Positions 2,683 through 33,029 of a stretch of DNA of 33,717 nt are shown piece by piece. Positions within the stretch are counted from its first letter, which is position 1, and every line of letters starts with the position of its first letter. A program made the translations under genes and the position numbers. This stretch comes from Betaproteobacteria bacterium (GTDB taxonomy: Bacteria > Pseudomonadota > Gammaproteobacteria > Burkholderiales > SG8-39): the NCBI GenBank assembly GCA_009693435.1, contig SHXF01000048.1:1-33717 (forward strand), given 5' to 3'. Below the pieces are notes generated by a model. That model ran no database searches. It saw only the letters and a list, made by a program, of their open reading frames with translations, and was not told the DNA's origin.

Positions 2683-2688
2683 GGAGTG

Positions 2689-2717
2689 CTTATAGCATGC
2701 CATAGCACCACGTGCAA
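2689..2717 (-). promoter_or_regulatory. Putative sigma-70 promoter and operator of the RelE/HigA-like module
   Basis: On the minus strand TTGCAC (2717-2712) and TATAAG (2694-2689) are separated by exactly 17 bp. The spacer contains a near-palindrome, TATAGCATGCCATA on the plus strand (2691-2704), one mismatched pair from perfect, which is a plausible antitoxin operator. The expected start of transcription falls at or next to the toxin ATG (2682). Confidence 0.55.
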
Positions 2718-2737
2718 TAGCAATTGGACAGTCCATG

Positions 2738-5919: not shown

Positions 5920-5920
5920 G

Positions 5921-6460: not shown

Positions 6461-6542
6461 CGCCCGGCGGCCGCGCGCGTGCGGCCGCCGGACGGTGTGT
6501 AACGACTCACGCTGGGGATGTGTCCGCGGCGAGGGAGGGGGA

Positions 6543-7565: not shown

Positions 7566-7648
7566 TGTCTGCTCCTTTGAATGGTGTTCGAGTCGGCAGT
7601 AGCGGGCAGGCGGATTCTTGTCATTGCCAGATCGCCTTCACTGAATCA

Positions 7649-7678
7649 CCCGATGCGCGCGCCGAGAGCCGCATCGGG
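7649..7678. promoter_or_regulatory. Inverted repeat in the divergent dctP/Rieske control region
   Basis: CCCGATGCG (7649-7657) and CGCATCGGG (7670-7678) are perfect 9-bp arms around 12 nt. It sits between the divergent TRAP and oxygenase operons, with no T-tract, so it is a candidate operator for a regulator controlling both directions. A TAGAAT hexamer near 7713 could be a -10 for the rightward operon, but I see no convincing -35. Confidence 0.4.
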
Positions 7679-7780
7679 ATCCGGACGATGCCTTCGAGGG
7701 CAAGTATAGGCGGTGTAGAATTAAATAGTAAAGGCGCAGTAAAGGGTGCCAACGCAGCAAAGCAGGAGGAAAGTTTCGTT

Positions 7781-11919: not shown

Positions 11920-12377
11920 GGTGTCCGCCTCTCGCGAAAAGCTTCAATCCGGAAATCGAAATCGGGACAGCACGCCCAGCCCATCGATCCGCTTTGATTC
12001 TAACGGATCTCCGCAGAATTAATTACTTGGTAAGGCAGGATAAACTTTGGCAAGCTTTCTTTCTAAAACCAAAGGTTTCTGGCAGGCACTAAATAACAAA
12101 TGTGCACAACGGAAAACTAAGATAATCAGACCAACCATAGTCGTGTCTCCGGCGACGCAGAGATGGGTTCAATAGAAATCCACCCTATTGTCAGCAAGGT
12201 GAAACCCGGGGAAGCTCAAGGGAGCGGAGGGAGTTTTACACGAGAGTGCTAGGCACGACCCGCGCGAATCGAACCGATCTGGGATTTCCGGGTGCTTGGC
12301 TCAACGCGAAGAACACGATTAAACATCTCGCGGAATACGCATTTCCTGTGTCGGCAGACCCATTAGTGAGGCGCCCC
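11920..12377. other. 458-bp AT-rich divergent intergenic region
   Basis: Separates the acetamidase (-) from the dioxygenase alpha subunit (+). Base composition drops visibly, with A/T runs around 12010-12130, compared with the GC-rich flanks. A frame open from 12246 joins the alpha gene but its first 44 codons do not resemble oxygenase sequence. It probably holds the promoters for both directions and the left boundary of an acquired segment. I could not fix a convincing promoter pair, regulator gene or insertion-sequence end. Confidence 0.55.
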
Positions 12378-13712
12378 ATGAGACAGATTAGCACCGATGA
12401 AATTCGCAGGTTGGTTAAACCAGATGCCGTCCATCAGCGGGTATACACGGACCCCGCCATTTTCGAACTCGAGATGGCACGAATCTTCGAGAGCAACTGG
12501 GTTTACGCGGCGCATGAAAGTGAAATTCGCGCTCCAGGCGATTACGTACGCGCGCGGATTGGTCGACGCGATATTCTAATCGTGCGGATCGAATCTGGCG
12601 GAATTGCGGCATTCCACAATCGATGTGCGCATCGAGGTTCCATGATCGCCCGTCCGATTCGAGGCCACGTAAAAGCTTTCAATTGTCCCTATCATGGCTG
12701 GAGTTACGATTGCGAAGGCAAGCTAATCGGCGTTCCTGTGAGTCGCGGCTACTACCCTGAAGGTTTCGTCGAAGACGCCAAACGGCGTCTCGAGCCAGTG
12801 GCTCGTGTTGCCAGTTATCGTGGATTTATTTTTGTGAGCCTTGCTGCGGATGTACCAGAGCTTGAAGAGTATCTTGCCCCCGTACGAGATTCGATCGACA
12901 ACATGGTGGACCGCGCGCCGGACGGCGAGCTAGTCAAGGAGGGTGGAGAATTCCGGCAAATCTGCAATTGCAATTGGAAGCTTCATACCGAAAATGTGTT
13001 TGACGTGCTCCACGCTTTTTTTCTGCATGAATCGTCGTGGGCCTCGGCCAAGGATTGGCAGCGCGACAGCGATGTTATCGGTGAGCTCAATCAGCAGGTA
13101 CAGATGCTAAAGGCGAACAGCCTGCCCCCGCGAGAATCCGAAAGGGTCGAACTTCGTTCTTTTGAACATGGTCACGCTATTCTCGGCGGCTTTTACAACG
13201 ATACGAAGATTGGCCAGGAGAGCCCGGAGCCGTGGTTCGCCCAATACAAAGACGCCCTTATCAGGCGGCATGGGAAAGAGCGCACGAAGGAGATTCTGGC
13301 GTTGGATCGGTTCAATACATTGATCTATCCGAATTTAGTCATCAACATCCGATTTCAGCACGTGCGGGTGTTCGAGCCAGTATCCGTTAATCGATCGATC
13401 GTGCGAGCCTTCTGCCTTCGGCTTGGCGGTGCCCCGGAGGATCTTTTCCAGATTGCTGTGAAATTTCTTACTTCCCTCAATTCACCAGCTTCAATGATCT
13501 CGCAGGATGACCACGAGGTGTTCAATCGTATGCAGCGCGTGCTTACGAGCGAACGGCATGATGCGCTCAATGCGGCTGAATGGATCAATATCGCTCGTGG
13601 TCGCGAGCGCGAGCAGCCACATGCCGATGGGAGCATAGATGCAGCGAGCGGTCTGAGCGAACTGCCTCTCCGCGCCCAATTTAACGCGTGGGTACAGCAC
13701 ATGTCGGCTTAG
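12378..13712 (+). CDS. Ring-hydroxylating dioxygenase, large (alpha) subunit
   Basis: Predicted 444 aa, the usual length for alpha subunits of the benzoate/anthranilate/toluene dioxygenase superfamily. The N-terminal Rieske domain has C83-A-H85-R-G and C103-P-Y-H106-G-W with the standard 17-residue gap. The catalytic domain has NWKLHTENVFDVLHAFFLH, giving D209-x2-H212-x4-H217 for the mononuclear iron. ATG 12378 is chosen because family sequence starts with QISTDEIRRLV and GAGG precedes it. The beta subunit follows 16 bp later. Codon choice is clearly AT-richer than in neighbouring genes. The cognate ferredoxin and reductase are missing. The native substrate is probably an aromatic carboxylate or related ring, which is inference. 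Confidence 0.92.
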   Translation: MRQISTDEIRRLVKPDAVHQRVYTDPAIFELEMARIFESNWVYAAHESEIRAPGDYVRARIGRRDILIVRIESGGIAAFHNRCAHRGSMIARPIRGHVKAFNCPYHGWSYDCEGKLIGVPVSRGYYPEGFVEDAKRRLEPVARVASYRGFIFVSLAADVPELEEYLAPVRDSIDNMVDRAPDGELVKEGGEFRQICNCNWKLHTENVFDVLHAFFLHESSWASAKDWQRDSDVIGELNQQVQMLKANSLPPRESERVELRSFEHGHAILGGFYNDTKIGQESPEPWFAQYKDALIRRHGKERTKEILALDRFNTLIYPNLVINIRFQHVRVFEPVSVNRSIVRAFCLRLGGAPEDLFQIAVKFLTSLNSPASMISQDDHEVFNRMQRVLTSERHDALNAAEWINIARGREREQPHADGSIDAASGLSELPLRAQFNAWVQHMSA

Positions 13713-13728
13713 AACGAGGCCCCCAGGA

Positions 13729-14229
13729 ATGACCGCAGCGCCAGAAATGATCCCGCCGCTATTACGCGAAGAAATCGAATCGTTCATTTGGAACGAGGCC
13801 GGTCTGTTGGATGATCGATGCTTCGAGGAGTGGCTTGCCCTTTTTGCGGAAGATGGCAGGTACTGGGTTCCGGCACAGACTGTCGATCCTGAACCGCTTG
13901 GGAAAATTTCAATTTTTTACGAAGACAAAAACCTTCTGGCCATCCGGATACGCCGTATGCGGCATCCTGCGAACTTCGCGCAGCAACCATTCCCACGGAC
14001 CAGCCATCTTCTCGGACGCATCGGCGTGGAGGCGGTTCCGGACAGTCTCTACAGCGTTACGTCTCGCATGCATGTGATTGAATATCGTGAGGGCGACGAA
14101 AAGCGCATCTTTGCGGGAAAGTGTCTACACACGCTTCGGCGCGAACACGGGCAACTTAAAATCGTGTTGAAGCGCGTCGATATTATTGATTGCGATGGGC
14201 CGCAATCGTTTATCACCGTGCCGATTTAG
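13729..14229 (+). CDS. Ring-hydroxylating dioxygenase, small (beta) subunit
   Basis: Predicted 166 aa. It has the beta-subunit pattern: LREEIESFIWNEAGLLDDRCFEEWLALFAEDGRYWVP at residues 12-48, RIRRMRHPANFAQQPFPRTSHLLGRI near 72-97, and a C-terminal strand-rich part ending IVLKRVDIID. These subunits adopt a cone-shaped NTF2-like fold and form an alpha3beta3 hexamer; they have a structural role and sometimes affect substrate choice. CCAGGA lies directly before ATG 13729, which is a tight spacing; ATG 13747 is an alternative. It shares the AT-richer composition of the alpha gene, so the two moved together. Confidence 0.92.
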   Translation: MTAAPEMIPPLLREEIESFIWNEAGLLDDRCFEEWLALFAEDGRYWVPAQTVDPEPLGKISIFYEDKNLLAIRIRRMRHPANFAQQPFPRTSHLLGRIGVEAVPDSLYSVTSRMHVIEYREGDEKRIFAGKCLHTLRREHGQLKIVLKRVDIIDCDGPQSFITVPI

Positions 14230-15028: not shown

Positions 15029-15337
15029 GGTGGTCTTGGTACGCGGGGAGGCGATCGATGAGCAGCTTATGTTACAGCGCGGTAAATTTGTTCTCAAGCG
15101 ACTAACCAGGGAAGTCAAGCCGGGGAACGTCGGACCTCACAAGCTGCAAATCACCCGGGCAATAGGGGGCCGAACGGGGGGGTGATCGCAGTTGACCCGG
15201 GTGCACCCTTTCACGAGAAACTGGTGTTCGCCCGCGTTGTAGGTGCCGACCTTGAACATCCCGATTCCCCGGAAAACCGCCAGCTGCACCGCTTTGTTAA
15301 AATGAACCTCCACTCTTCCACTATCCACGAGAGCGCC

Positions 15338-15958
15338 ATGTCCGATCCCCGTCCATTCATCGTTGGCATTGGCGGCACGACTCGCGAAGGGTCTTCCTCG
15401 GAAATGGCCATGCGCTGCACACTGGCCGCAGCCGAACGCCAGGGCGCTGAAATCGCCGTGCTCGCCGGTCCGGATCTGGTTTTCCCCATGTACGCGCCGG
15501 AGCAGAGCTACCGCGATCCGCGCGCGGAGCGGGTCGTGGAACTGCTGCGTCGCAGTGATGGCGTGATCATCTCCTCGCCCGGCTACCACGGTTCGATATC
15601 GGGCCTGATCAAGAATGCGCTGGACTATGTCGAGGACATGCGCAGCGACGAGGCGCCCTACTTCGACGGCCGCGCGGTCGGCTGCATCGTCTGCGCCTAC
15701 GGCTGGCAGGCCACCGGCACCACGCTGACCGCGCTGCGCTCCATCGTCCACGCGCTGCGCGGCTGGCCGACGCCCATCGGGATCGGCATCAACACCACCG
15801 GCAAGATCTTCGACGCAGCGGGCAGCTGCATCGATGCCGGTGTTGCCAAGCAACTCGAACTGATGGCCTCGCAGGTGGTGAAGTTCGCGCGCATGCACGC
15901 CGCTCACAAGGATTCCGGCGAGGCCGGGCTGCCGCCGCTGGTTGCGTCCGTCAAGTAG
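15338..15958 (+). CDS. NADPH-dependent FMN reductase family protein
   Basis: Predicted 206 aa flavodoxin-like protein. The phosphate-binding loop of FMN is GGTTREGSSSEMAM (about residues 12-25), and the second flavin loop is SSPGYHGSISGLIKNALDYVEDM (about 75-97), the family hallmark P-x-Y-x-x-S-x-x-x-x-L/I-K-N. Such enzymes transfer electrons from NAD(P)H to FMN, quinones or metals. ATG 15338 is preceded by GAGAG; ATG 15302 in the same frame is a less likely start. It could feed reduced flavin to a partner enzyme, but Rieske oxygenases normally use iron-sulfur flavoprotein reductases, so a role with the oxygenases here is only a possibility. Confidence 0.85.
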   Translation: MSDPRPFIVGIGGTTREGSSSEMAMRCTLAAAERQGAEIAVLAGPDLVFPMYAPEQSYRDPRAERVVELLRRSDGVIISSPGYHGSISGLIKNALDYVEDMRSDEAPYFDGRAVGCIVCAYGWQATGTTLTALRSIVHALRGWPTPIGIGINTTGKIFDAAGSCIDAGVAKQLELMASQVVKFARMHAAHKDSGEAGLPPLVASVK

Positions 15959-16024: not shown

Positions 16025-16054
16025 ATTGCAACGCCGAACCGGTCGCAACCCCAC

Positions 16055-16060
16055 AAGGAG
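16055..16060 (+). promoter_or_regulatory. Ribosome binding site deciding the start of the second DctP
   Basis: AAGGAG is 1 nt from ATG 16062, too close to serve it, but 7 nt from the in-frame GTG 16068. The GTG also places the lysine/arginine residues directly at the start of the signal peptide. Confidence 0.6.
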
Positions 16061-16067
16061 AATGGAC

Positions 16068-17042
16068 GTGAGAAAAGGCATCGCAGTACTCGCAGTCACA
16101 CTGCTGGCGGTGTCCGCCGCCGGCGGCGCCCTGGCCGCGGACTTCCGCTGGCTGAGTAGCTGGGACGACAATTACCCGGCCATTCCCAACCTGGCGCTGC
16201 CCTTCATCAAGGGTATCGAAACGGCTTCCAAAGGCAGCATCAAGATTACCCGCAGCGGTCCGGAAGCAGTGCCGGCTTTCGAGCAGCTCCAGCCGGCGGG
16301 ATCCGGCGCCTTCCAGTTCCTCTTTACGCATGGCGCCTACCACTACGGCACGACGCCGGTGCTTGCCGCCATAGAGGCGATAGGCGGCACATCCGAGTCG
16401 CGCATCGCGTCGGGAATTTTCGATATCGTCGATCGCCATTACCAGAAACTCGGCCTCAAGCTGATCGCCATACCCATGGGCCCGGACGGCGGCTACGGCA
16501 TCATCCTGCGCCAGGCACCCACGCCCGCCGGCGACCTGCAGGGCCGCAAGATCCGCGGCACGGCAACCTACAACGCGGTGTTCCGCATGCTGGGCGCGTC
16601 GCCGGTGCTGCTGCCGCCCGGCGAGATATACACCTCGCTCGACAAGGGTGTGGTCGACGGCGCCGCCTGGCCGGTGCTGGGGCCGCTGAATTACCGCTGG
16701 TACGAAGTGGCGAAATACATGCTGCGCCCGGGCTTCGGTTTCACCACCCAGCCCATATTCATGAACCTGGCGAGCTGGAACCGGCTGTCCGATGCGGAGA
16801 AGAAAATCATCTCCGACGAAGGCCGCAAGGCCGAGGCGAGCTGGCCCAAGCAATCCGCCGCGATGATGATCGAAGAAGAAAAAGCCCTGTTGGGGAAGGG
16901 CATGCAGATCGTGCAGATGGGCGACGCGCAGAAAGCGAAGCTCAAAGATGTATGGGCCGAGGGATTGTGGGAGATGACGGCGCAGAAGGCGCCAAAGGAG
17001 ATAGCGGAACTCCGTGCATTCGCCAAGAGCAAGGGTCTGTGA
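16068..17042 (+). CDS. dctP: TRAP transporter solute-binding protein (DctP), second system
   Basis: Predicted 324 aa from GTG 16068, with a signal peptide (MRKGIAVLAVTLLAVSAAGG, likely cut after ALA at about residue 23). Family stretches: LQGRKIRGTATYNAVFRMLGASPVLLPPGEIYTSLDKGVVDGA, containing the Arg that usually binds the substrate carboxylate, and a helical C-terminus. It differs strongly from the DctP at 6543-7565, so the two systems probably carry different acids. The small and large permease genes follow at once. The iterons at 15970-16024 lie just upstream and are the most likely control site. Confidence 0.9.
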   Translation: MRKGIAVLAVTLLAVSAAGGALAADFRWLSSWDDNYPAIPNLALPFIKGIETASKGSIKITRSGPEAVPAFEQLQPAGSGAFQFLFTHGAYHYGTTPVLAAIEAIGGTSESRIASGIFDIVDRHYQKLGLKLIAIPMGPDGGYGIILRQAPTPAGDLQGRKIRGTATYNAVFRMLGASPVLLPPGEIYTSLDKGVVDGAAWPVLGPLNYRWYEVAKYMLRPGFGFTTQPIFMNLASWNRLSDAEKKIISDEGRKAEASWPKQSAAMMIEEEKALLGKGMQIVQMGDAQKAKLKDVWAEGLWEMTAQKAPKEIAELRAFAKSKGL

Positions 17043-17091
17043 GGCGTCCACCGGGCTGCAAGCCGTGAATGACAGGGGGGAGGGGGGCGGC

Positions 17092-17595
17092 GTGCTGGCG
17101 AAGATCGGCGCGGCGCACGACTGGATTACCATCATCGGTTTTGGCGCCGCCGCGATCTGCCTGGCGGTAATCGTCTGCTCGTTCTGCTACGAGGTGGTGT
17201 CGCGCTATTTCCTGTCGGCGCCCACCGAGTGGGCGAGTCCGATGGTGTCGTTTGCCTTGTGCGTGATGATTTTTCTGGCGATGCCGGAACTCACGCGGCA
17301 GGTGGCGCACATCTCCATCAACACCCTGGCCGACAGCATGTCGCACGGCAACGCCGCCATCCTGCGTTCCATCGTGCGCATCATCGCCGCGATTGCCTGT
17401 CTGCTGGCGGCGTGGTTCAGCGCGAACGAAACCTTCGATCAGTTCAACAATGGTATCTGGACCAGCCCGCCGATGGCGGTGCCGAAGTGGACCATATCCG
17501 TCTTCGTGCCCTACGGCATGTTGAGTTCCGGCATCTACTTCCTGCGCCAGCTCGTTGCCGGCGGATCCAACCCCGCTTCTGAAGGAATCGCATAA
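17092..17595 (+). CDS. dctQ: TRAP transporter small permease (DctQ), second system
   Basis: Predicted 167 aa from GTG 17092, chosen because a GGGAGG-like site lies about 10 nt upstream; GTG 17065 is the alternative. Four hydrophobic segments are visible, beginning IIGFGAAAICLAVIVCSF (about 12-29). SRYFLSAPTEWASPMV (about 37-52) is the conserved DctQ stretch with the W/E pair, and RQVAHISINTL carries the H-x-x-x-N/D loop motif. Its TAA overlaps the ATG of the large permease by one base (TAATG), so the two are translationally coupled. Confidence 0.87.
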   Translation: MLAKIGAAHDWITIIGFGAAAICLAVIVCSFCYEVVSRYFLSAPTEWASPMVSFALCVMIFLAMPELTRQVAHISINTLADSMSHGNAAILRSIVRIIAAIACLLAAWFSANETFDQFNNGIWTSPPMAVPKWTISVFVPYGMLSSGIYFLRQLVAGGSNPASEGIA

Positions 17596-18914
17596 TGACC
17601 TGGTGGGTTGCGTTATCCGGCGGCGTCGGGCTGTTGCTCGCGCTGCTGTTGCTCGGCGTGCCGATCTTCGTCGCGTTTCTTTTGCTCAACGTGGCCGGGA
17701 TATTGGCGATCCTCGGACCGGCGGGCTTCGGCATGTTCGCCAACAGCATCTACGCCACCGGTACCATCAGTGCGCTGGCCGCAGTGCCGCTCTTCATCCT
17801 GATGGGCGAAATCCTGTTTCGCTCGGGCGCGATGGAAGTGCTGCTGGATTCCATGGACACGCTGGTCGGCAAAATCCGCGGCCGGCAGTATGTGCTGTGC
17901 ATCCTGCTGTCTGCCATCCTGGGTGCGCTTTCGGGCGCGGCCATGGCGGTGGCGGGCCTGCTCGGCCGGTCATTGCTTCCGACCATGCTCAAGCGGGGAT
18001 ACGACAAGCATTTGTCGGCCGGCACCCTCCTCGCCGGGGCGAGCCTCGATCCCATCATCCCGCCCAGCGTGCTCGCCATCCTGATCGCCACGATTGCGCA
18101 GATTTCCACCGGCAAGCTGTTGATCGCCGGCATCGTGCCGGGGCTGCTGCTGACCGGCATGTTCCTCGTCTACGTGCTGATCCGCGTCAAGTTGAATCCG
18201 CAGCTGGCGCCCGAGCTTGCGATCGACCTGGCCGAAGGAAAGGCCGGCGGCAGCATGCTGATGGCGCTGGTGAAGATGCTGCCCTCCGCGCTGATTTTCT
18301 TCCTGGTGATGGGGCTGGTGATGCTGGGTGTGGCCACGCCTACCGAGTCCGCCGCGACGGGTGTGTTCGGCGCGCTGTTGCTGGCGAAAGGCTACAAAAA
18401 ACTCTCCTGGGGAATGGTGCGGGAGTCGTTAATGTCCTCCGTGACGGTGGCATCGCTCTTGCTGCTGGTGATGTGCTGCGCGGTGATGTTCAGCCAGCTG
18501 CTCACGCTCACCGGCGCGGCGCGCAACCTGGGTGAAGTCGTGGTCGCGCTGAAACTGTCCCCGGCGATGATGCTGATCATCATGATAGGGGTGCCGTTCG
18601 TCTTGTTCATGTTCCTCGACCAGGTCGCGCTGATGCTGGTGCTGATCCCGATCTACAACCCGCTGTTGAAGGTGTATGGCTTCGACGAGATCTGGTTTTA
18701 TACGCTGTTCCTGGTGGTGGCCACGGTTGGTGGGCTGTCACCGCCCTTCGGCTATACGCTGTTTGCGCTGAAGAGCGCCGCGCCCACGATGCCCATGAGC
18801 GACATCTTCAAGGCGGCATGGCCGTTCGTCTGGATCATGATGCTGGGGCTGCTGATCATGGCGGTGTTTCCGCCGCTGGTGACCTGGCTGCCGAACCTGA
18901 TGTCGCAGAAGTAA
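17595..18914 (+). CDS. dctM: TRAP transporter large permease (DctM), second system
   Basis: Predicted 439 aa, about 12 membrane segments. Recognisable family blocks: PLFILMGEILFRSGAMEVLLDSMDTLVG (about 57-85), ILGALSGAAMAVAGLLGRSLLPTMLKRGYDK, GASLDPIIPPSVLAILIAT, ATPTESAATGVFGALLL, and the closing LSPPFGYTLFALKSAAP. It is the ion-coupled subunit of the second transporter. AAGGAA lies about 8 nt before the ATG, inside the end of dctQ. The gene is followed by 44 bp and then the convergent Bug gene; I see no clear terminator in that gap. Confidence 0.92.
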   Translation: MTWWVALSGGVGLLLALLLLGVPIFVAFLLLNVAGILAILGPAGFGMFANSIYATGTISALAAVPLFILMGEILFRSGAMEVLLDSMDTLVGKIRGRQYVLCILLSAILGALSGAAMAVAGLLGRSLLPTMLKRGYDKHLSAGTLLAGASLDPIIPPSVLAILIATIAQISTGKLLIAGIVPGLLLTGMFLVYVLIRVKLNPQLAPELAIDLAEGKAGGSMLMALVKMLPSALIFFLVMGLVMLGVATPTESAATGVFGALLLAKGYKKLSWGMVRESLMSSVTVASLLLLVMCCAVMFSQLLTLTGAARNLGEVVVALKLSPAMMLIIMIGVPFVLFMFLDQVALMLVLIPIYNPLLKVYGFDEIWFYTLFLVVATVGGLSPPFGYTLFALKSAAPTMPMSDIFKAAWPFVWIMMLGLLIMAVFPPLVTWLPNLMSQK

Positions 18915-18958: not shown

Positions 18959-19933
18959 CTATTCGGCCTTGATACCCGCCGCCTTGATCAGTCGGGCATT
19001 GGCTTCGAATTCGTCCCGCACCAGGGTTTCGAAATCGGCCACCGAGAGGGTCAGCGGATCGACGCCCAGCTTGAGCATTTTTTCCCGCACATCGGGGGAA
19101 TTCACGGCGGCATTCATTTCGCGGTTGAGTCGCTGCACGATGTCGCGCGGCGTTCTGGCAGGCAGGAGCGCCCCGATCCAGAAGTTGTAGTCCGAATTGG
19201 GATAACCCGCTTCCACCGTGGTCGGCACGTCCGGCAACAGCGAACTGCGCCTGGGCGAACCCATGGCAAGCGCGAGCAGCTTGCCATCGCGTACGTGAGC
19301 GCCGACCGAAAATACCGGTGCGAAATACAAATCGGCACGGCCGGTCAGCACTTCGGTCAGCGCCTCGGAGGCGCCTTTCATCGGCACGTTGGTGAAGGTG
19401 ATGCCCGCGGCCAGGCGGAACCGTTCGAGGTTCATGTGGGTCGAACTGCCAATGCCCGCGGTGGTCGCGATCAGCATGCCGGGCCTGGCCCTGGCCGCAG
19501 CCACGATGTCCGCCACGTTCTTGTACCCTTTTGCGGGCGAAGCGATGAGCACCGTGGGCACGCTGCCCAGCATGGCAACGGGCGCAAGGTCTTTCGGGTC
19601 CAGCGGTCCCTTGCTCAGCAGCGGCGCCACGGTGAACGCGGAGGTGTAGATCGAGATGGTGTGTCCGTCGGGATCGCTTTTGGCAACCGAGGCGGCGCCT
19701 ATCAGGCCGCCGACGCCGAGGCGGTTTTCGACGATAACCGCCTGCCCCAGGCTGGCCTGCAGTTTCTCGGTGAGTATGCGTGCGATCGTGTCCGAGGCGC
19801 TGCCCGGCGTGACACCCGAAATCAGCCGTATCGTCTTGCTCGGGAAGGGCGCGGTTTGCGCCCATAGCGCAGGTGCGGCCGCAAGCGACATAGCAGCGAA
19901 GGTGCAGAGTGACAGACTCAGTTTGTTCCGCAT
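18959..19933 (-). CDS. Bug-family (tripartite tricarboxylate transporter) binding protein
   Basis: Predicted 324 aa with a signal peptide (RNKLSLSLCTFAAMSLAAAP, cut near ALWA, about residue 25). The mature protein begins FPSKTIRLISGVTPGSASDTIARIL, then QAVIVENRLGVGGLIGAASVAKSDPDGHTI, the standard Bug pattern, and continues DVPTTVEAGYPNSDYNFWIG with a family C-terminus. Bug proteins bind organic anions in the periplasm and serve transport or sensing. ATG 19933 has AGGAG at good spacing. It is the last gene of the hyuA-hyuB-hydrolase operon (56 bp after the hydrolase). No TctA/TctB genes are near, as is common for Bug proteins in Burkholderiales. The ligand is probably the operon's substrate. 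Confidence 0.92.
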   Translation of the reverse strand: MRNKLSLSLCTFAAMSLAAAPALWAQTAPFPSKTIRLISGVTPGSASDTIARILTEKLQASLGQAVIVENRLGVGGLIGAASVAKSDPDGHTISIYTSAFTVAPLLSKGPLDPKDLAPVAMLGSVPTVLIASPAKGYKNVADIVAAARARPGMLIATTAGIGSSTHMNLERFRLAAGITFTNVPMKGASEALTEVLTGRADLYFAPVFSVGAHVRDGKLLALAMGSPRRSSLLPDVPTTVEAGYPNSDYNFWIGALLPARTPRDIVQRLNREMNAAVNSPDVREKMLKLGVDPLTLSVADFETLVRDEFEANARLIKAAGIKAE

Positions 19934-25067: not shown

Positions 25068-26180
25068 TTACACCGCGCCCGTCATGTTGAGGTTGACGTG
25101 CACCACTTCGTGCCCGTCGTCGATTTCACGTCCCAGCGCGCGCACCGCCTTGTCGGCTTCGGCAAGCGGATAGACGTGCGAACAGAGCGGGGCCAGGTCC
25201 TTGTGGCGTCGCTTGAGGATCTCCAGCGCGAGTTCCAGCGATTGTGACGTCGAGGAGAGCACGCCCATGAGCGTGAGTTCCTTGATCACGATCTTGTCGG
25301 TAATCAGGCCCGATATCGGCTTGTGCCCCTTCAACCCGGCGAGCACGATGCGGCCGCCCTGGCGCGCGATTTCCACCGCCTGCACGATAGGTTCGGTCGA
25401 GTGCGAGGACATGTCGAGCACCAGGTCCGCCATCTCACCGCCGGTGATGTCGCGCACCCGGTCCACCAGGTCTTCGCGGCTGACGTCGATCACCGCGTCC
25501 GCGCCCAGGCTTAGCGCCACGTCCAGCCGGTGGCGGTCCTGCGCGAGGCCGGTGACGGTCACCGTCTTCGCACCCGCTTCACGCGCGGTGAGCGCGGCCA
25601 GAATGCCGCGCTGGCCCGGTCCGAGGATGACCACGTGCTCGCCCATGCGCAGGTTGGGCACGTCGTAGATCCAGCGCACCACGCCGGAGAGCGGGTTGAA
25701 CAGGGTCATCACGTCGCTCTGGATCTGTTCCGGGGCGCGTTTCAGCACGGTGTTCGGATGCAGGTACATATGGGTCGCGTAGCCGCCCCACAGGCTGGGC
25801 TTCACGTGGGTGGTCATAAACAGGCCGTAACCCATGCGCCGCTCGCAGCGGTGAAACGCCGCCATGCGGCACTGGCGGCACTTGCCGCAGGGCAGCGGCG
25901 CCTTGACCACCACCCGGTCGCCTTCCTTGACCTTCCAGTTCTTCGCCGCCTGGGCGCCAATGCGCTCTACCCAGCCGACCGGCTCGTGCCCGGGGATGAT
26001 GGGGATGCTGCCCCAGGGCGTGGCTTTGAGCTCACAGCGGTATTGCTCGTAGTCGGTGGCGCACAGCCCGTTGGTTTCCATACGCAACAGGCCATCGTCG
26101 GCGACGACCTCCGGCAGCGGAAATTCCTGGTGCTCGAATGTGCGCGGGCCGATGAGCACCGCCGCCGTCGCCTTGTTCAT
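25068..26180 (-). CDS. Zinc-dependent alcohol dehydrogenase (MDR family)
   Basis: Predicted 370 aa. Catalytic zinc ligands fit C39 (GLCATDYEQY) and GHEPVG; the structural zinc loop is complete with C-x2-C-x2-C-x7-C in PCGKCRQCRMAAFHRC. The cofactor domain has VVILGPGQRGILAAL, where the usual GxGxxG is GPGQRG. Length and order are those of medium-chain dehydrogenases that oxidise a secondary alcohol or polyol with NAD(P). ATG 26180 has GGAGG directly upstream. It is divergent from the Rieske-Bug cassettes with a 209-bp shared control region, so it probably acts in the same pathway, for example on a hydroxylated product. Confidence 0.9.
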   Translation of the reverse strand: MNKATAAVLIGPRTFEHQEFPLPEVVADDGLLRMETNGLCATDYEQYRCELKATPWGSIPIIPGHEPVGWVERIGAQAAKNWKVKEGDRVVVKAPLPCGKCRQCRMAAFHRCERRMGYGLFMTTHVKPSLWGGYATHMYLHPNTVLKRAPEQIQSDVMTLFNPLSGVVRWIYDVPNLRMGEHVVILGPGQRGILAALTAREAGAKTVTVTGLAQDRHRLDVALSLGADAVIDVSREDLVDRVRDITGGEMADLVLDMSSHSTEPIVQAVEIARQGGRIVLAGLKGHKPISGLITDKIVIKELTLMGVLSSTSQSLELALEILKRRHKDLAPLCSHVYPLAEADKAVRALGREIDDGHEVVHVNLNMTGAV

Positions 26181-26376
26181 GTTTCCTCCGATATAGCGTT
26201 GCACGCAGGCTTGCGCCGGGGCATTCCTCGAGACGAGCGCGCGAAATCCATTGCGGCACGTGGGGTGCCATCTTATGATCTTTTGCCGGACAGCAACAGA
26301 TGGACGCTTGCTGTCCTGCGGCGTGCGCGCCCTCACCCGCACCGGCGCCTTGCGCCGACAGGTGGGTGAGCAACCC

Positions 26377-26383
26377 GGGGGAG
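26377..26383 (+). promoter_or_regulatory. Ribosome binding site selecting a TTG start
   Basis: GGGGGAG lies 6 nt before TTG 26390. The start chosen gives an N-terminus (about 11 residues before QPYSGY) matching the paralogous oxygenase at 28748, which has 10 residues before the same motif; the frame start at 26300 would add an unrelated Cys/Ala/Pro-rich head. Confidence 0.65.
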
Positions 26384-26389
26384 CAAAAC

Positions 26390-27706
26390 TTGGCCGGCAA
26401 CGAAAAACGCATCGAGGCAACGCAGCCCTACTCAGGGTACGTGCGCCGGGCAGCCACGCGGGAGAATACCGAACTGACCCACGTGGAAAAAGGTTCGCCC
26501 TGCGGCGAGTACCTGCGGCGCTTCTGGCAGCCGGTCGCGCTGTCGTCCGATCTGAAAGACATTCCAGTCGCTGTCGAACTGCTGTGCGAAAAGCTGGTGC
26601 TGTTCCGCGACAAGTCTGGTCGATTGGGGCTGCTCGATCGCCACTGCAGCCATCGCGGCATGTCGCTGGAGTTCGGCCTGATCGGCGAACGAGGACTGCA
26701 GTGCGGTTACCATGGCTGGCACTACGACGTGGATGGACGCATCCTCGATATTCCTGGCATGCCGGACGGGCAGGACTACAGGACCACGTTCACCCATGGC
26801 GCCTACCCGGTGCGCGAATTCCAGGGCATCGTCTTCACTTACCTGGGGCCGCCTGAGCACTTGCCGCAGTTTCCCGTGTACGACTTCATGCAGTTTCCGG
26901 AGCAGGACCTGCATCCGGTCCGCTGGCACTCGCCGTGCAACTGGCTGCAGGTTCGGGAGAACACCCAGGATCCCATTCACACCAGCTTCCTGCACACCAT
27001 GTTCGGCGTGCCGCAATTCGGCCCCTGGTTCTACGACCTGCCGGTAATCCAGTGGGCGGAGACGCCGGTCGGCCAGGTTACCGTGAGCGCGCGCCATACC
27101 CATGGGCACCTGTACGCGCGGGTGAACGAACTCATCCTGCCCAATTATTCCAGGGTGCCCGAAGGCTCGGGACACAGCGGCGACAAGAGCGGCCGCTACG
27201 TCCCGTCCGCGCGCGGACGCGGCATGTCGTTCTGGGTGGTGCCGCTGGATAACGTGAACTGCGTGATGACGGGCTGGTTCCATTTCACACCCGACCAGGA
27301 CGCGGCCCTGCGCGAGCGCATCGTGAAAAACGTGTCGCTCGGCCAGTACAAGGACCGGCCGGAGGAAGAGCGCGCACGCTACCCCGGCGACTACGACGCC
27401 TGGGTGTCGCAGGGACCGATCGCCATCCACGCCAACGAACACCTGTGCAGGAGCGACGGCGCCGTCGCCCTGTACCGCACGCAACTGCGCAAGGGCATAC
27501 GCGCGGTGCAGGAAGGACGCGATCCGAAAGGGCTGTTCAGGACTGCACAGGCGCCGATTCAGACGTATGCCAGCAACATGTTCGAGGAGCCGCCCGCGGC
27601 ACTGGAAGGCGACGTCAGGAACGAAGCGCTTGTGGCATTCGGGCAGCGCTCGCTCGACCGGACACTCGCATTGCTTTTCGACGACAACCCGAAAGTGAGA
27701 ATCTGA
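26390..27706 (+). CDS. Rieske non-heme iron oxygenase, phthalate dioxygenase-like, cassette copy 1
   Basis: Predicted 438 aa from TTG 26390. The Rieske ligands are C86-S-H88-R-G and C105-G-Y-H108-G-W. The iron site is D194-x2-H197-x4-H202 in RENTQDPIHTSFLHTMFG, the pattern of single-subunit oxygenases related to phthalate 4,5-dioxygenase and other aryl carboxylate/aryl ether oxygenases (LigX/PobA-like group). These hydroxylate or demethylate aromatic acids using a separate reductase, which is not encoded here. The stop overlaps the following Bug gene (TGATG). By eye about three quarters of residues are the same as in the oxygenase at 28748-30082, so the two arose by duplication. Confidence 0.9.
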   Translation: MAGNEKRIEATQPYSGYVRRAATRENTELTHVEKGSPCGEYLRRFWQPVALSSDLKDIPVAVELLCEKLVLFRDKSGRLGLLDRHCSHRGMSLEFGLIGERGLQCGYHGWHYDVDGRILDIPGMPDGQDYRTTFTHGAYPVREFQGIVFTYLGPPEHLPQFPVYDFMQFPEQDLHPVRWHSPCNWLQVRENTQDPIHTSFLHTMFGVPQFGPWFYDLPVIQWAETPVGQVTVSARHTHGHLYARVNELILPNYSRVPEGSGHSGDKSGRYVPSARGRGMSFWVVPLDNVNCVMTGWFHFTPDQDAALRERIVKNVSLGQYKDRPEEERARYPGDYDAWVSQGPIAIHANEHLCRSDGAVALYRTQLRKGIRAVQEGRDPKGLFRTAQAPIQTYASNMFEEPPAALEGDVRNEALVAFGQRSLDRTLALLFDDNPKVRI

Positions 27707-28680
27707 TGCTGCGTCAAATTATCATGTTGCTTCTCGCAGCCTGCTCTGCGATCCAGGCATTACCCGCGTCGGCCCAGGCGTTTCCGTCGAAGCCGATGCG
27801 GATCATCGTGCCCCTGCAGGCCGGGCCCGCCGATACCGTCACCCGTGCGCTCGGGCAAAAGTTGTCCGAGACCTGGGGCCAGCCCGTGATTGTCGAGAAC
27901 AGGCCGGGCGCCAACATGATCATTGGCGCCGAGGCGGCGGCAAAGGCGGCGCCGGACGGCTATACCCTGCTGTTCGCCTCCGATGCCCTGATGTCCATCA
28001 ATCAGTTTCTCTATTCGAGGCTTCCCTACGATCCGGAGAAGGACTTCACGCCGGTGGCTATCCTGGCCTACACCATCACCACGGTAATGGTGAGTGCGCA
28101 GCTTCCGGTCAACAGCGTGGCGGAACTGGTCCAGCTGGCGAAAGCGCAACCGGGAAAGTTCAATTACGGAACGCTCGGGCTGGGCAGCAACGGGCACCTC
28201 GCCGCGGAACTGTTCAAGGCGGCGACCGGCGTCGAGATCGCGCATGTGCCGTTCAAGGGATCGCCTGATTTGATCCAGGCCATGGCGAGCAACGAAGTCC
28301 AGATGGCTTTCCAGGGCCCGGGCACGGCGCTGCCTTCGATCCGGGCGGGCAAGATCAAGGCGCTGGCCGTGTACAGCCAGCGCCGCCTGCCCACGCTCGC
28401 GACGGCGCAAACCATGGCGGAAGCCGGCTTTCCGAATGTGGACGGCGCACGCGCCTGGTACGGGATCGTGGCGCCCGCGCTGACGCCGAAGGACGTGGTC
28501 GCACAAATCGCCCGCGAGATGGTGCGGGTGGCGACTACGCCGGAGTTTCGGGAGAAATATCTGGTGGGGTTCAATCTCGAGCCGGTCGGTGCCGGCCCCG
28601 ATGAGCTCGCCGCGGTGATCCGGGCCGACCGCGAAAAATATTCGCAACTGGCGAGGAAACTAAACATCCGACTCGATTGA
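27706..28680 (+). CDS. Bug-family binding protein, cassette copy 1
   Basis: Predicted 324 aa with a signal peptide (MLRQIIMLLLAACSAIQALP, cut near ASA, about residue 23). The mature start FPSKPMRIIVPLQAGPADTVTRALGQKL and the block PVIVENRPGANMIIGAEAAAKAAPDGYTL are standard Bug sequence; HVPFKGSPDLIQAMASNEVQMAF and AGKIKALAVYSQRRLPTL follow. The ATG overlaps the oxygenase stop by one base, so oxygenase and binding protein are made together. The ligand is therefore probably the oxygenase substrate. It is more like the Bug protein at 30075-31067 than the one at 18959-19933. Confidence 0.92.
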   Translation: MLRQIIMLLLAACSAIQALPASAQAFPSKPMRIIVPLQAGPADTVTRALGQKLSETWGQPVIVENRPGANMIIGAEAAAKAAPDGYTLLFASDALMSINQFLYSRLPYDPEKDFTPVAILAYTITTVMVSAQLPVNSVAELVQLAKAQPGKFNYGTLGLGSNGHLAAELFKAATGVEIAHVPFKGSPDLIQAMASNEVQMAFQGPGTALPSIRAGKIKALAVYSQRRLPTLATAQTMAEAGFPNVDGARAWYGIVAPALTPKDVVAQIAREMVRVATTPEFREKYLVGFNLEPVGAGPDELAAVIRADREKYSQLARKLNIRLD

Positions 28681-28747
28681 CTGCGAGCGGTGTGCGCACA
28701 CGCGCCGCGTGCGTACCGGGATCGCGATGCTTTGAGGAGCAGAAGAT

Positions 28748-30082
28748 ATGTCCGAGGATGATCCAGCCGAGGCAATCCAGCCCTATTCCGGTTATGCGCG
28801 CAATCCGGCGCCCGGGGAAAGCACCGAGTTGACGCATGTGGAAAAGGGTTCGCCCTGCGGCGAGTACCTGCGCCGCTTCTGGCAGCCGCTCGCACTGTCG
28901 TCCGACCTGAAAGACATTCCCGTCGCTGTCGAACTGCTATGCGAAAAGCTGGTGCTGTTTCGCGACAAGTCCGGTCGATTGGGGCTGCTCGATCGCCACT
29001 GCAGCCATCGCGGCACCTCGCTCGAATTCGGCCTCATCCGCGAGCGCGGCCTGCAGTGCTGCTACCACGGCTGGCACTATGACGTGGACGGACGCATCCT
29101 CGACATTCCCGGCGTGCCCGATGGCGAGGATTACCGGCAGACTTTTTTTCATGGCGCCTACCCGGTGCGCGAGCACGCCGGTCTGATCTTCGCGTACCTC
29201 GGGCCGCCTGAGCGCATTCCCGATTTCCCCGCCTACGATTTCATGCACTTCCCCGGGCAGGACCTGCACCCCGTATGCTGGAATTCACCGTGCAACTGGC
29301 TTCAGATCCGCGAGAACACCCAGGATCCGATACACACCAGCTTCCTGCACACGATGTTCGGCGTGCCGCAGTTCGGTCCCTGGTACTACGACCTGCCCGT
29401 CATCCAGTGGTCCGAGACGCCGATCGGCCAGGTTACGGTCAGCACCCGCGACACGCACGGCCGCTTGTATGCCCGCGTCAACGAACTGATCCTGCCCAAT
29501 TTCTCCCGCGTGCCGGAGGGCCACGGCGCGAGCGGCAACAAGGACGGCGGCTATGTGCCGTCGCCGCGCGGCCGCGGCATGTCCCTGTGGGTGATCCCGC
29601 GCGACAACGTGAATTCGAGCATGATCGGCTGGTTTCACTTCACCGCCGATCAGGATGCGGGGCTGCGCGCACGCATACTCGCGAACACATCGCTCGGGCA
29701 GTATTGCGATCGGCCCGAGGAGGAGCGCCGCCGCTATCCCGGCGACTACGATGCCTGGGTCTCGCAGGGACCCATCGCGATCCGGCAGAATGAGCACCTG
29801 TGCAAGAGCGACGGCGCCATTGCTTTGTACCGGACCCAGTTGCGTCGCGGTATTGCCGCGGTTGCGGCCGGAAAAGATCCCAAGGGGGTGGTCCGCAATC
29901 GCGCCGGCCATGTGCAATCGTATGGCAACAATCTATTCGAAACGCGACCTGCCGGCGAATTCGACGCAGCGTCGAAGCAACAGCTGCTGTTCGAATTCGG
30001 GCAGCGCAGCCTGCAGCGCACGCTGTCGGGCCAATTCGATACCGACCCGGTGTCGCCGAGCGTGGAGGCGGGCAATGTTTGA
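28748..30082 (+). CDS. Rieske non-heme iron oxygenase, phthalate dioxygenase-like, cassette copy 2
   Basis: Predicted 444 aa. The Rieske ligands are C85-S-H87-R-G and C104-C-Y-H107-G-W; an extra Cys (C105) sits beside the third ligand. The iron site is D193-x2-H196-x4-H201 in RENTQDPIHTSFLHTMFG. Residues 11-120 are almost the same as in the first cassette's oxygenase, while the C-terminal 60 residues differ most. ATG 28748 has GAGGAG upstream. Its last 8 bases overlap the following Bug gene. The two oxygenases may prefer different ring substituents, or one may be on the way to a new specificity. Confidence 0.9.
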   Translation: MSEDDPAEAIQPYSGYARNPAPGESTELTHVEKGSPCGEYLRRFWQPLALSSDLKDIPVAVELLCEKLVLFRDKSGRLGLLDRHCSHRGTSLEFGLIRERGLQCCYHGWHYDVDGRILDIPGVPDGEDYRQTFFHGAYPVREHAGLIFAYLGPPERIPDFPAYDFMHFPGQDLHPVCWNSPCNWLQIRENTQDPIHTSFLHTMFGVPQFGPWYYDLPVIQWSETPIGQVTVSTRDTHGRLYARVNELILPNFSRVPEGHGASGNKDGGYVPSPRGRGMSLWVIPRDNVNSSMIGWFHFTADQDAGLRARILANTSLGQYCDRPEEERRRYPGDYDAWVSQGPIAIRQNEHLCKSDGAIALYRTQLRRGIAAVAAGKDPKGVVRNRAGHVQSYGNNLFETRPAGEFDAASKQQLLFEFGQRSLQRTLSGQFDTDPVSPSVEAGNV

Positions 30083-31067
30083 GCGCGCGAGTCGGCGGTT
30101 GATGCGCGTTCTTGGCGCAGCGCTGCTCGCGCTGGCCTGCCTGTCCGCAATGGCGCAGGGCTTTCCGGTCAAGCCGGTGCGCATCATCGTGCCGTTCCCG
30201 GCGGGCGGCGCCACCGACTTGCAGATGCGCGCCCTGGGCCAGAAGCTAAGCGAGTCCTGGGGACAGCCGGTGCTGGTGGAAAACCGTCCCGGCGGCAACA
30301 TGGTGATTGCCGCGGAGGCGGCGGCGAAATCCGCCCCGGACGGCCATACCCTGGTGTTCGCAACCGACTCCATGGTCTCCATCAATCCCCAGTTGTACGC
30401 GAAGCTCCCGTACCATCCCGAGCGCGATTTCGCGCCCGTGGCCCTGATAGGATTCACCAACACCTGCCTCATGGTGAGCGGCGCGTTGCCGGTGGCGAGC
30501 GTGCAGGAATTCATCGCGCTCGCGAAATCGCGACCCGGCGCGCTCAACTACGGCACCTTCGGCACGGGAACCAACGGCCACTTTGCCGCCGAAAATTTCA
30601 AGTCGGCGACCGGGACGCAACTGGTGCACGTGCCGTTCAAGGGCGGCGGGCCCATGCTGCAGGCGCTGACCGTCAACGAAGTGCAGGTCATATTCATCGG
30701 TCCTGGCACTGCGCTGCCGCTGATCCGCAGCGGCAAGGTCAAGGCGCTGGCGCTGTACGGCAACCGCCGCCACACGCTGCTGCCCGATGTGCCGACAATG
30801 GCGGAAGCCGGATTCGGCAGCATCGACGGCGCCAACGCTTGGTGGGGCATCATGGCGCCATCCGGGACGCCGCGCGATGTCATCGCAAAGCTGTCGGAGG
30901 ACATCATCCGTGTCATGAGCGACGCCGATTTCCGGGATAAGTATGTCATCGGCTTCGCGCTGGAACCCGCCTTTGGCGGTCCGGAAAAATTCGCGGCGCT
31001 GCTGCGCGCCGACCGCGACAAGTGGACCGAAGCGGTGAAACGGACGAACATCAGGCTGGACCAGTAG
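30075..31067 (+). CDS. Bug-family binding protein, cassette copy 2
   Basis: Predicted 330 aa with a signal peptide (N-terminal RRLMRVLGAALLALACLSAM, cut after about residue 28). The mature start FPVKPVRIIVPFPAGGATDLQMRALGQKL and PVLVENRPGGNMVIAAEAAAKSAPDGHTL are classic Bug sequence. ATG 30075 has GGAGG upstream and overlaps the oxygenase stop by 8 nt. Between the two cassettes the binding proteins have diverged more than the oxygenases. The second copy ends the island's catabolic core; an intergenic REP-like element follows. Confidence 0.92.
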   Translation: MFERASRRLMRVLGAALLALACLSAMAQGFPVKPVRIIVPFPAGGATDLQMRALGQKLSESWGQPVLVENRPGGNMVIAAEAAAKSAPDGHTLVFATDSMVSINPQLYAKLPYHPERDFAPVALIGFTNTCLMVSGALPVASVQEFIALAKSRPGALNYGTFGTGTNGHFAAENFKSATGTQLVHVPFKGGGPMLQALTVNEVQVIFIGPGTALPLIRSGKVKALALYGNRRHTLLPDVPTMAEAGFGSIDGANAWWGIMAPSGTPRDVIAKLSEDIIRVMSDADFRDKYVIGFALEPAFGGPEKFAALLRADRDKWTEAVKRTNIRLDQ

Positions 31068-31093
31068 GCTCGCCTGGCGAAAACTCAATCCGT

Positions 31094-31118
31094 TCGTCCT
31101 GAGCCTGTCGAAGGACGA
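31094..31118. repeat. REP-like palindrome
   Basis: TCGTCCT (31094-31100) and AGGACGA (31112-31118) flank GAGCCTGTCGA. This is the form of a short palindrome widely dispersed in proteobacterial genomes. It may also act as a terminator after the last Bug gene. Confidence 0.65.
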
Positions 31119-31265
31119 CAAACTCAGCGTGAACAGTTCCATGTATTTTTAAAAGATCGACAGGGCCGCTATCGAATCCGGCGCGCGCGGCAGGGAATTC
31201 ATGGTGGATCATATCGAGGGCTGGTGCGATCTGTTGCGGAAACGGGCGTACCTTTTTCACACATG

Positions 31266-31294
31266 TGATAACAAAAATAGCGGAGGTGTTATCA
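31266..31294. promoter_or_regulatory. Operator-like inverted repeat over the VapB ribosome site
   Basis: TGATAACA (31266-31273) and TGTTATCA (31287-31294) are perfect 8-bp arms around 13 nt that include the GGAGG ribosome site. The right arm ends on the A of the antitoxin ATG. Binding of the VapBC complex here would block expression, and the RNA could also fold to hide the ribosome site. Confidence 0.6.
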
Positions 31295-31518
31295 TGATCC
31301 GTACCCAAATCAGCCTGCTCGAGCCGGAATACGTAGCCGCCAAGGCGGAGGCCAAGCGGCTCGGCATTTCCCTGGCGGAATTGTTGCGTCGCTCGTTGCG
31401 CACGGTGCTTCCGGTCGACGAATCCAAGCCCTGGATGCGCTACGCGGGTATGGTCGAGTCCGGCGACCCGAAATCCAGCCGCAACATTGATGACGTGATT
31501 TATGGCCAAAAGCCCTGA
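31294..31518 (+). CDS. vapB: Ribbon-helix-helix antitoxin (VapB-like)
   Basis: Predicted 74 aa. MIRTQISLLEPEYVAAKAEAKRLGISLAELLRRSLR is a ribbon-helix-helix DNA-binding domain (strand then two helices); the tail around WMRYAGMVESGDPKSSRNIDDVIYG would bind the toxin. ATG 31294 is preceded by GGAGG and is preferred over the in-frame start at 31201, which lacks antitoxin sequence. It overlaps vapC by 17 nt, giving coupled synthesis with antitoxin first. Confidence 0.85.
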   Translation: MIRTQISLLEPEYVAAKAEAKRLGISLAELLRRSLRTVLPVDESKPWMRYAGMVESGDPKSSRNIDDVIYGQKP

Positions 31519-31912
31519 AGTCTACGTCGACACTTCCGCCTTGATCGCGTTGCTCGATCGTTCCGACACCTATCACCCATTGTTTCGCCAGCTGTTTGCC
31601 GCGCCGCCCAAACTGGCATCCACCAGCCTCGTGATTGCGGAGGGTCACGGATGGTTTCTCAGTAGATACGACCGATTCCGCGCAATGCAGTTTATGGCGA
31701 TGATCGAAGACATGACGCCGCTCACGGTGTGGCCGGTGGGGCCCGTGGAAATAGCCGGCGCCACTGCGATTATGAGGAAGTACAAGGAACAGGACTTGAC
31801 GCTGGCCGACGCGGCCGGGCTTCACCACATGTTGGCGCGCAAAATTCGCCATTGCTGGTCAACCGATTTTCATCTTGCAATGGCAGGGGCTGCGTTGGTG
31901 ATCAATCGTTGA
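31502..31912 (+). CDS. vapC: PIN-domain toxin (VapC-like ribonuclease)
   Basis: Predicted 136 aa PIN protein. The acidic residues expected for Mg-dependent RNA cleavage are present: the N-terminal Asp in VYVDTSALIALLD, the Glu in VIAEGH, the Asp in LTLADAAGLH and the Asp in WSTDFHLA. Characterised VapC toxins cut tRNA or rRNA; the target here is unknown. ATG 31502 lies inside the end of the antitoxin gene. The module looks intact, unlike most toxin-antitoxin loci in this window. It borders the right side of the catabolic core. Confidence 0.88.
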   Translation: MAKSPEVYVDTSALIALLDRSDTYHPLFRQLFAAPPKLASTSLVIAEGHGWFLSRYDRFRAMQFMAMIEDMTPLTVWPVGPVEIAGATAIMRKYKEQDLTLADAAGLHHMLARKIRHCWSTDFHLAMAGAALVINR

Positions 31913-32610: not shown

Positions 32611-32975
32611 TTACTCCGCGCGGGCGCCGGAATTTCTGACAATCGGTCCGAGGCGTTCCAGGTCGCCGGCGATCGGCGCCGCGAACTCCTCCGGAGTGCT
32701 GCCCACGATATCGAATCCCTCCATGCGCGGGACTATGTCGGGACTGAGCAAGCCTTTGCGAGTTCTCCGTGCAGTCTGGCGACAAGAACCGCAGGCAACC
32801 CGGCCGGCGCGTCAACGCCAAACCCACTGGAAGCTCAAAAACCTGAAGGCCGCCCTCGGCCCATGTGGGAATGCCGGCAAGCATTGTCGAGCGCTTGCTG
32901 TCCGCCACCGCTATCGCCCGCAACCGGCCGTCGCGCACTATCCGTGTCCCCGACGGCGGAGACGCCTTGTATGTT
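32611..32975 (-). pseudogene. Bug-family binding protein remnant
   Basis: Read across two frame changes, the minus strand gives the C-terminal third of a Bug protein: IVRDGRLRAIAVADSKRS...LAGIPTWAEGGLQVFELPV, then in another frame GFGVDAPAGLPAVLVARLHGELAKA, then LSPDIVPRMEGFDIVGSTPEEFAA...LGPIVRN with stop at 32611-32613. The shifts lie near 32835 and near 32750. The first two thirds, including the signal peptide, are absent. It is not a fresh copy of the intact Bug genes in this window, being clearly diverged from them. Confidence 0.8.
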
Positions 32976-33029
32976 CTGATTAACCCGGCTTTCGTCATTC
33001 CCGGCCACCACTGCGCTACACTGTTGGCA

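Follow-up and report, generated by a model that had tools for sequence, protein, structure and literature searches.

Terephthalate 1,2-dioxygenase, the enzyme of the closest described parallel to the locus considered here, is a Rieske-type oxygenase. In Comamonas sp. E6 the tph operon pairs it with the Bug-family periplasmic receptor TphC while the membrane pair, TpiBA, is encoded elsewhere, an arrangement in which TphC is reported to resemble the majority of described tripartite tricarboxylate transporter (TTT) receptors, whose membrane genes lie in another operon (PMC8556258). Orphan Bug genes beside catabolic enzymes are already known from tph (PMC8556258), from a review (PMC5812351) and from the arylmalonate decarboxylases of Betaproteobacteria, where an orphan TctC-type gene adjoins the enzyme gene (PMC4996985), and hundreds of TTT receptors have been reported alongside few TctAB pairs (PMC5994714). 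The window analysed here, 33,717 nucleotides of contig SHXF01000048.1 from a Betaproteobacteria bacterium (assembly GCA_009693435.1), holds two adjacent two-gene units in the order oxy1, bug1, oxy2, bug2, all four on the plus strand, each joining the gene of a Rieske oxygenase to that of a Bug/TctC-family periplasmic binding protein.

With a probability of roughly 0.6, each pair constitutes a minimal uptake-and-oxidation unit, in which an orphan TTT receptor supplies the oxygenase through a shared TctAB membrane pair. After export, the Bug protein would act in the periplasm, capturing an acidic aromatic compound and passing it on to the TctAB pair, whose genes would lie elsewhere in the genome. 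One messenger RNA would give rise to both the Bug and the cytoplasmic oxygenase, which would oxidise the imported compound with electrons from a reductase also encoded elsewhere, and the tandem would have arisen by duplication of the whole unit, probably for two related substrates.

Frequency of the oxygenase–Bug pairing

The pairing was counted in 98 genomes of the family that includes the genome of L001 (a paired locus described below), 27 of which together yield at least 47 oxy2 relatives with E values no higher than 1e-45, with at most 17 candidates scored per genome. Setting aside four places near contig ends (L092, L100, L110 and L117), a same-strand Bug gene, detected with a profile built from 20 Bugs, lies within 300 nt of 24 of the 43 usable oxygenase genes, its nearest side being downstream in 16 and upstream in eight; without the contig-end filter 27 of 47 are paired, three of the four dropped places also having a Bug. 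Enoyl-CoA hydratases from those 27 genomes, sampled non-randomly as 30 best-match loci and 40 picked by hand further down the list (two dropped at contig ends; one, L190, retained with a stop in its focal frame), adjoin a Bug in only 7 of 68 cases (Fisher P 5e-7 against the oxygenases), or 5 of 39 usable among the 40 hand-picked alone (P 6e-5). Bug density by itself predicts about 5 of 47, a rough figure calculated from first-look Bug counts at one gene per kb. The oxygenase–Bug pairing is not a product of chance; among relatives rich in Bugs it is a genuine and strong association.

A second control, the Amidohydro_2 enzymes, narrows what the pairing can mean: 8 of 26 adjoin a Bug (29 of 30 loci used, L234 matching no listed place, and three dropped at contig ends), and the difference from the oxygenases, which show the highest pairing of the three enzyme classes counted, is borderline (P 0.05). 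Since amidohydrolases are fairly often beside Bugs, some of the enrichment reflects a tendency that Bug-rich genomes show in general. That all of it does so, Bugs being placed beside many catabolic genes and importing some other compound, from that pathway or a different one, is unlikely, albeit the most serious of the competing accounts; it draws further on a Bug density reaching 491 first-look candidates in 4.6 Mb, on the distantly related Bugs carried on either side by distant oxygenases, and on a third Bug gene in the window (18959-19933) that ends a different enzyme run, whereas the oxygenases stand far above the hydratases and about fivefold above the rough density expectation, close oxygenases mostly retain the same Bug, and pocket residues are kept per lineage (in only two and three sequences).

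Beyond the family the picture changes. A wider scan, taking one genome per species and keeping the best 80 loci, found the oxygenase with an adjacent Bug on its strand in two: L001, from a metagenome-assembled genome, with an oxygenase 77% identical, and L002, from Ramlibacter aurantiacus, at about 50%. With only 2 of 80 loci paired, the oxygenase group as such does not need a Bug. Among 99 open reading frames (ORFs) that are immediate same-strand neighbours of the oxygenase at 78 loci of other genomes, selected by a rough script, the commonest family accounts for 10 and ABC_tran for five, and the 25 families listed, out of 93, do not include TctC. Matches in plasmid records (565) were all below 60% identity, and viral contigs gave three weak relatives at 30–40% identity, which were not used. 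The first-pass annotation had held that its proposal of a dedicated capture-and-oxidise unit would fail if such oxygenases were rarely beside Bug genes; this is the case in the wider scan and is not the case within the related family. As uptake feeding catabolism the proposal is reasonable, given the tph precedent, the 24 of 43 paired relatives and the co-varying distances described below, and taken as a whole it is partly supported.

Several observations weigh against the uptake-and-oxidation reading: the Bug neighbour is absent from 78 of the 80 wider-scan loci; amidohydrolases share the tendency (8 of 26); the oxygenase places are partly non-independent, L125/L126 and L132/L133 being near-identical; and the second carboxylate contact of characterised relatives, R207 in phthalate dioxygenase or H257 in isophthalate dioxygenase, is not kept in the alignment. 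Gene order, overlaps, protein families, the enrichment in relatives, the agreement of the trees, the conversion-like tract and the lineage-specific pocket residues are direct results, whereas we infer export, transcription of both genes together, a ligand common to receptor and enzyme, the part of TctAB and of a reductase, and the kind of substrate.

Descent of the pairs and age of the tandem

Oxygenase and Bug distances co-vary over 34 pairs (Mantel r 0.67, P 1e-4), a set that includes the two of the window, L001 and L002, three from an order search (L088, L089 and L091) and L114 twice, and leaves out the bug1–oxy2 junction; r is 0.63 for the 31 pairs remaining without near-identical ones, of which the 18 downstream pairs alone give 0.72. 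Where nearest oxygenases are at least 69% identical they mostly carry the same Bug (54–85% identical, higher where the pairs are near-identical); L116 and L114 are the one clear case of an exchange (oxygenases 72%, Bugs 38%). Where they are at most 66% identical, the Bugs are only 28–35% alike and sometimes lie on the opposite side, as in L108 (upstream) and L123 (downstream), with oxygenases 66% and Bugs 33% identical. The simplest reading of these comparisons would be repeated recruitment of different Bugs followed by joint inheritance; an old shared pairing that was lost, with Bugs diverging fast, could also account for them. In many downstream pairs stop and start could meet or overlap: no nucleotide separates the oxygenase stop from the Bug start in L001 and L092, and a possible start codon gives a 4 nt overlap with the oxygenase stop in L086, L098, L114, L115, L116, L117, L120, L125 and L126. 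At five loci a gene for Hsp33 (hslO) separates the Bug from a distantly related oxygenase and lies upstream of the latter (L104, confirmed by PF01430; L085, L105, L111 and L121, called by eye).

A comparison of the oxygenase and Bug trees for matching branching, suggested by the first-pass annotation, finds them to split alike. The oxygenase tree groups oxy1 with P0004 (support 97/90) and, with moderate support, oxy2 with L001, L092 and P0002 (87/69); the Bug tree groups bug1 with P0241 (100/99) and bug2 with L001, L092 and P0122–P0124 (100/100), its long branches (L098, L115, L002 and the third Bug of the window) all falling outside the clade used. Because each copy groups with orthologues elsewhere, and genomes G001 and G438 hold a single-copy unit (on short contigs, with 0 nt from oxygenase stop to Bug start), the whole-unit duplication looks older than the genome of the window. 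An accident of tandem duplication, in which a neighbouring oxygenase and Bug were copied together without functional link, would suit the window taken alone, which amounts to one duplication event, and overlaps of 1, 4 or 8 nt are frequent between bacterial genes; it is nevertheless very improbable, the single-copy unit being retained in G001 and G438 at 0 nt spacing, both units having orthologues, and the pairing recurring across distant oxygenase lineages, a recurrence that already makes it unlikely.

The two oxygenases are 75–76% identical and the two Bugs 57–58%, so that the earlier description of similar oxygenases with more diverged binders stands in its numbers, with two qualifications. 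Bugs are less alike than their oxygenases also in closely related pairs of the 34-pair set, and the greater divergence of the binders is therefore partly a family habit; the likeness of the oxygenases, in turn, is partly local. Silent-informative codons are identical in 48 of 55 cases inside a tract of the Rieske domain and in 146 of 261 outside it (permutation P 0.003), with 94% DNA identity between oxy1 and oxy2 in the tract; comparison with L001 gives no such rise in similarity, and no such tract lies between bug1 and bug2 (P 0.95). This part of the oxygenases looks like the product of gene conversion. Recent duplication was rejected as the cause of the high oxygenase likeness, as the trees place the copies with separate orthologues and the likeness is local.

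Features of the tandem units (window coordinates)
Feature	Positions	Strand	Description
oxy1	26390-27706	+	Rieske oxygenase alpha subunit; TTG start following ribosome-site-like GGGGGAG; PF00355, PF19301, Rieske motif, DxxHxxxxH iron motif
Conversion-like tract in oxy1	26492-26665	+	codons 35-92, Rieske domain
oxy1 stop TGA / bug1 ATG	27704-27706	+	final A of stop is first base of ATG; 1 nt overlap, TGATG
bug1	27706-28680	+	Bug/TctC-family periplasmic binding protein; signal-peptide-like N-terminus (by eye)
bug1 ligand loop LQAGPAD, residues 37-43	27814-27834	+	one residue less than bug2 loop; orthologue P0241 equally shortened
oxy2	28748-30082	+	Rieske oxygenase alpha subunit; ATG start following GAGGAG
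Matching tract in oxy2	28847-29020	+	placed by one-codon alignment offset
oxy2 3' end / bug2 start overlap	30075-30082	+	8 nt, ATGTTTGA
bug2	30075-31067	+	Bug/TctC-family periplasmic binding protein; PF03401 215.4 bits; PDB relatives 2dvz, TBP 8hka, Bug27 2qpq

Rechecking of coordinates and junction letters bore out the two adjacent units with their 1 and 8 nt overlaps. The TTG start of oxy1 was picked via alignment and is backed by relatives of similar length, and all four genes show the GC pattern over codon positions that is typical of coding sequence (about 0.65/0.46/0.81). That oxygenase and Bug are made in step through the stop/start overlap is plausible. A scan of 26100-31300 gave one promoter-like site against 1.0 expected and five terminator-like sites against 4.1 expected, all five on the minus strand, which together are no help in choosing between one and two transcripts; Rfam gave no match at the gathering threshold. 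Shortly 3' of bug2, the palindrome GTCCTGAGCCTGTCGAAGGAC (31096-31116) could mark where a transcript ends or represent an interspersed repeat.

Predicted substrates and ligands

Both oxygenases carry PF00355 and PF19301 above cut-off, have the Rieske domain and catalytic iron motif, and belong by fold to the phthalate/isophthalate-dioxygenase-like Rieske enzymes. Residues C85, H87, C104 and H107 and D193, H196 and H201 of oxy2, which we take to be those of the Rieske and catalytic iron motifs, are invariant across 33 alignment rows. In characterised enzymes the substrate carboxylate is bound by an arginine, R244 in phthalate dioxygenase and R234 in isophthalate dioxygenase, where an R234A variant is reported to lose all activity (PMC12445078); R243 of oxy2 aligns with both and is invariant in the same 33 rows. 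Two specific activities were considered, and the residues expected of them are only half present: for phthalate 4,5-dioxygenase the R244 equivalent is kept and R207 is not, and for isophthalate dioxygenase R234 is kept and H257 is not, the H257 position aligning with the serine of GRGMS in oxy1 and oxy2. The best guess for the substrate would be an aromatic compound with one essential carboxylate, and the two enzymes draw attention to a group of uncharacterised oxygenases whose substrates are probably acidic aromatics. No Rieske-type reductase was found among the 37 window ORFs scanned with Pfam, so electrons are probably supplied from elsewhere; an NADPH-dependent flavin mononucleotide reductase is encoded at 15182-15958.

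Both Bug proteins match PF03401 far above its cut-off of 27 bits (at 214.6 and 215.4), have the two-domain binding-protein fold of TctC-family (TTT) receptors, and begin with a hydrophobic stretch and an AxA-like site, read by eye. Pocket positions were aligned through TBP 8hka to the terephthalate contacts of TphC used for comparison, P86, Q150, T155 and T/A242 (PMC8556258). A TphC-type pocket was rejected: the Q150 position holds F or L and the T155 position N, no proline stands at P86, and alanine stands at T242; by this set of residues, terephthalate would not be expected as the ligand of either Bug. The bug1 lineage (bug1 and P0241) and the bug2 lineage (bug2, L001 and P0122) differ in the loop (LQAGPA-D or LPAGAA-D vs FPAGGATD), at the Q150 position (L vs F) and before a conserved aromatic residue (GARA vs GANA). 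Since these patterns differ between the lineages and each is kept in its own orthologues, they suggest two different ligands for bug1 and bug2.

A bolder extension of the uptake-and-oxidation reading, to be held tentatively and at less than even odds, is that the pairs are matched modules repeatedly assembled from two expanding pools, and that the two in the window may be tuned to different substrates, with a shortened loop and a pocket-region arginine in the bug1 lineage (asparagine in the bug2 lineage), Rieske domains kept alike by gene conversion and C-terminal ends drifting. If this were true, the neighbouring oxygenase would predict the ligand of an orphan Bug and so help to decode unassigned Bugs. 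Bugs number in the hundreds in some genomes, most without a known ligand, and a repeated tie to one enzyme class offers a testable way to guess ligands; the two diverged copies in the window lend themselves to a side-by-side comparison of how pocket and active site have changed.

The absence of TctA/TctB partners noted in the first-pass annotation holds for the 37 window ORFs scanned, shorter and overlapping ORFs lying outside the scan. TctA genes occur in all six related genomes searched, with two matches against 171 first-look TctC candidates in G001, six against 348 in G438 and six against 491 in G406; so few TctA for so many TctC candidates in G001 and G438 make the missing adjacent pair ordinary. 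For G406 (4.6 Mb), all 150 candidates scored match at E 2.1e-61 or better. A Rhodoplanes genome of 8.2 Mb is reported to hold 434 TctC-type receptors (PMC5994714), a number that G406 would exceed in about half the DNA if most of its remaining candidates are real.

The first-pass annotation offered as its alternative that the binder acts as a sensor. In such a scheme the ligand-bound Bug would signal to a membrane kinase or other receptor so as to induce the oxygenase, as BctC does with BctE for citrate (PMC5812351), and TTT binding-protein genes are reported near 14 of 22 Rhodoplanes histidine kinase genes (PMC5994714). For these genes the idea found no direct support and is improbable: the window does contain a partial response-regulator domain, but it lies about 23 kb away and is the sole regulator-like match, no kinase was found among the 37 ORFs scanned, and no kinase or regulator was noticed by eye among the ORFs of L001 (a 4.9 kb contig). 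The response-regulator match itself, at 2194-3075, covers residues 193-240, and its frame may be broken or cut.

Neighbouring genes and comparison with known systems

Elsewhere in the window, two three-part tripartite ATP-independent periplasmic (TRAP) transporters (4615-7565, minus strand; 16026-18914, plus strand) flank two more Rieske oxygenases (7502-8938; alpha and beta subunits at 12246-14229), bringing the total with oxy1 and oxy2 to four; a mandelate-racemase-type enzyme and a short-chain dehydrogenase/reductase are also encoded between them. The third Bug gene is the last of a minus-strand series that also encodes a dehydrogenase, hydantoinases A and B and an alpha/beta hydrolase; here too the enzyme comes first and the Bug last. 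A weak TctC match below the family cut-off (32834-32986, minus strand) is perhaps a gene remnant, and a 74-residue ORF with no Pfam match (31294-31518) runs into the beginning of a PIN-domain gene (31502-31912), the two resembling a VapBC-type toxin–antitoxin pair. Three double-length Bugs (P0243, P0244 and P0296), considered as oxygenase fusions, were read as Bug–Bug joins without an oxygenase, either fusions or assembly errors.

Set against the described systems, the window unit differs from tph in having two genes, with no adjoining reductase, diol dehydrogenase or regulator, in the group of its oxygenase, and in Bug pockets that lack the P86, Q150 and T155 of TphC. From the phthalate and isophthalate dioxygenases of Comamonas testosteroni KF1, to which identity in aligned structures is 28% and 24%, oxy1 and oxy2 differ in the second carboxylate contact, which they have not kept, and in having no adjoining reductase in the window. 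The arylmalonate decarboxylase case involves a different enzyme, and no duplicated two-gene unit is described in the account of it (PMC4996985). The receptor-rich case of PMC5994714 shares with G001 and G438 its many receptors and few TctAB pairs, but its section 4 gives no pairing with Rieske oxygenases, and the word 'oxygenase' is absent from its main text. Among the titles and abstract openings listed by the searches of open-licence papers, none describes a two-gene unit joining a Bug to an oxygenase of this group. Orphan Bugs beside catabolic enzymes are thus shared ground with tph and the arylmalonate decarboxylases, and it is the frequency and apparent repeated assembly of oxygenase–Bug pairs that may be new.

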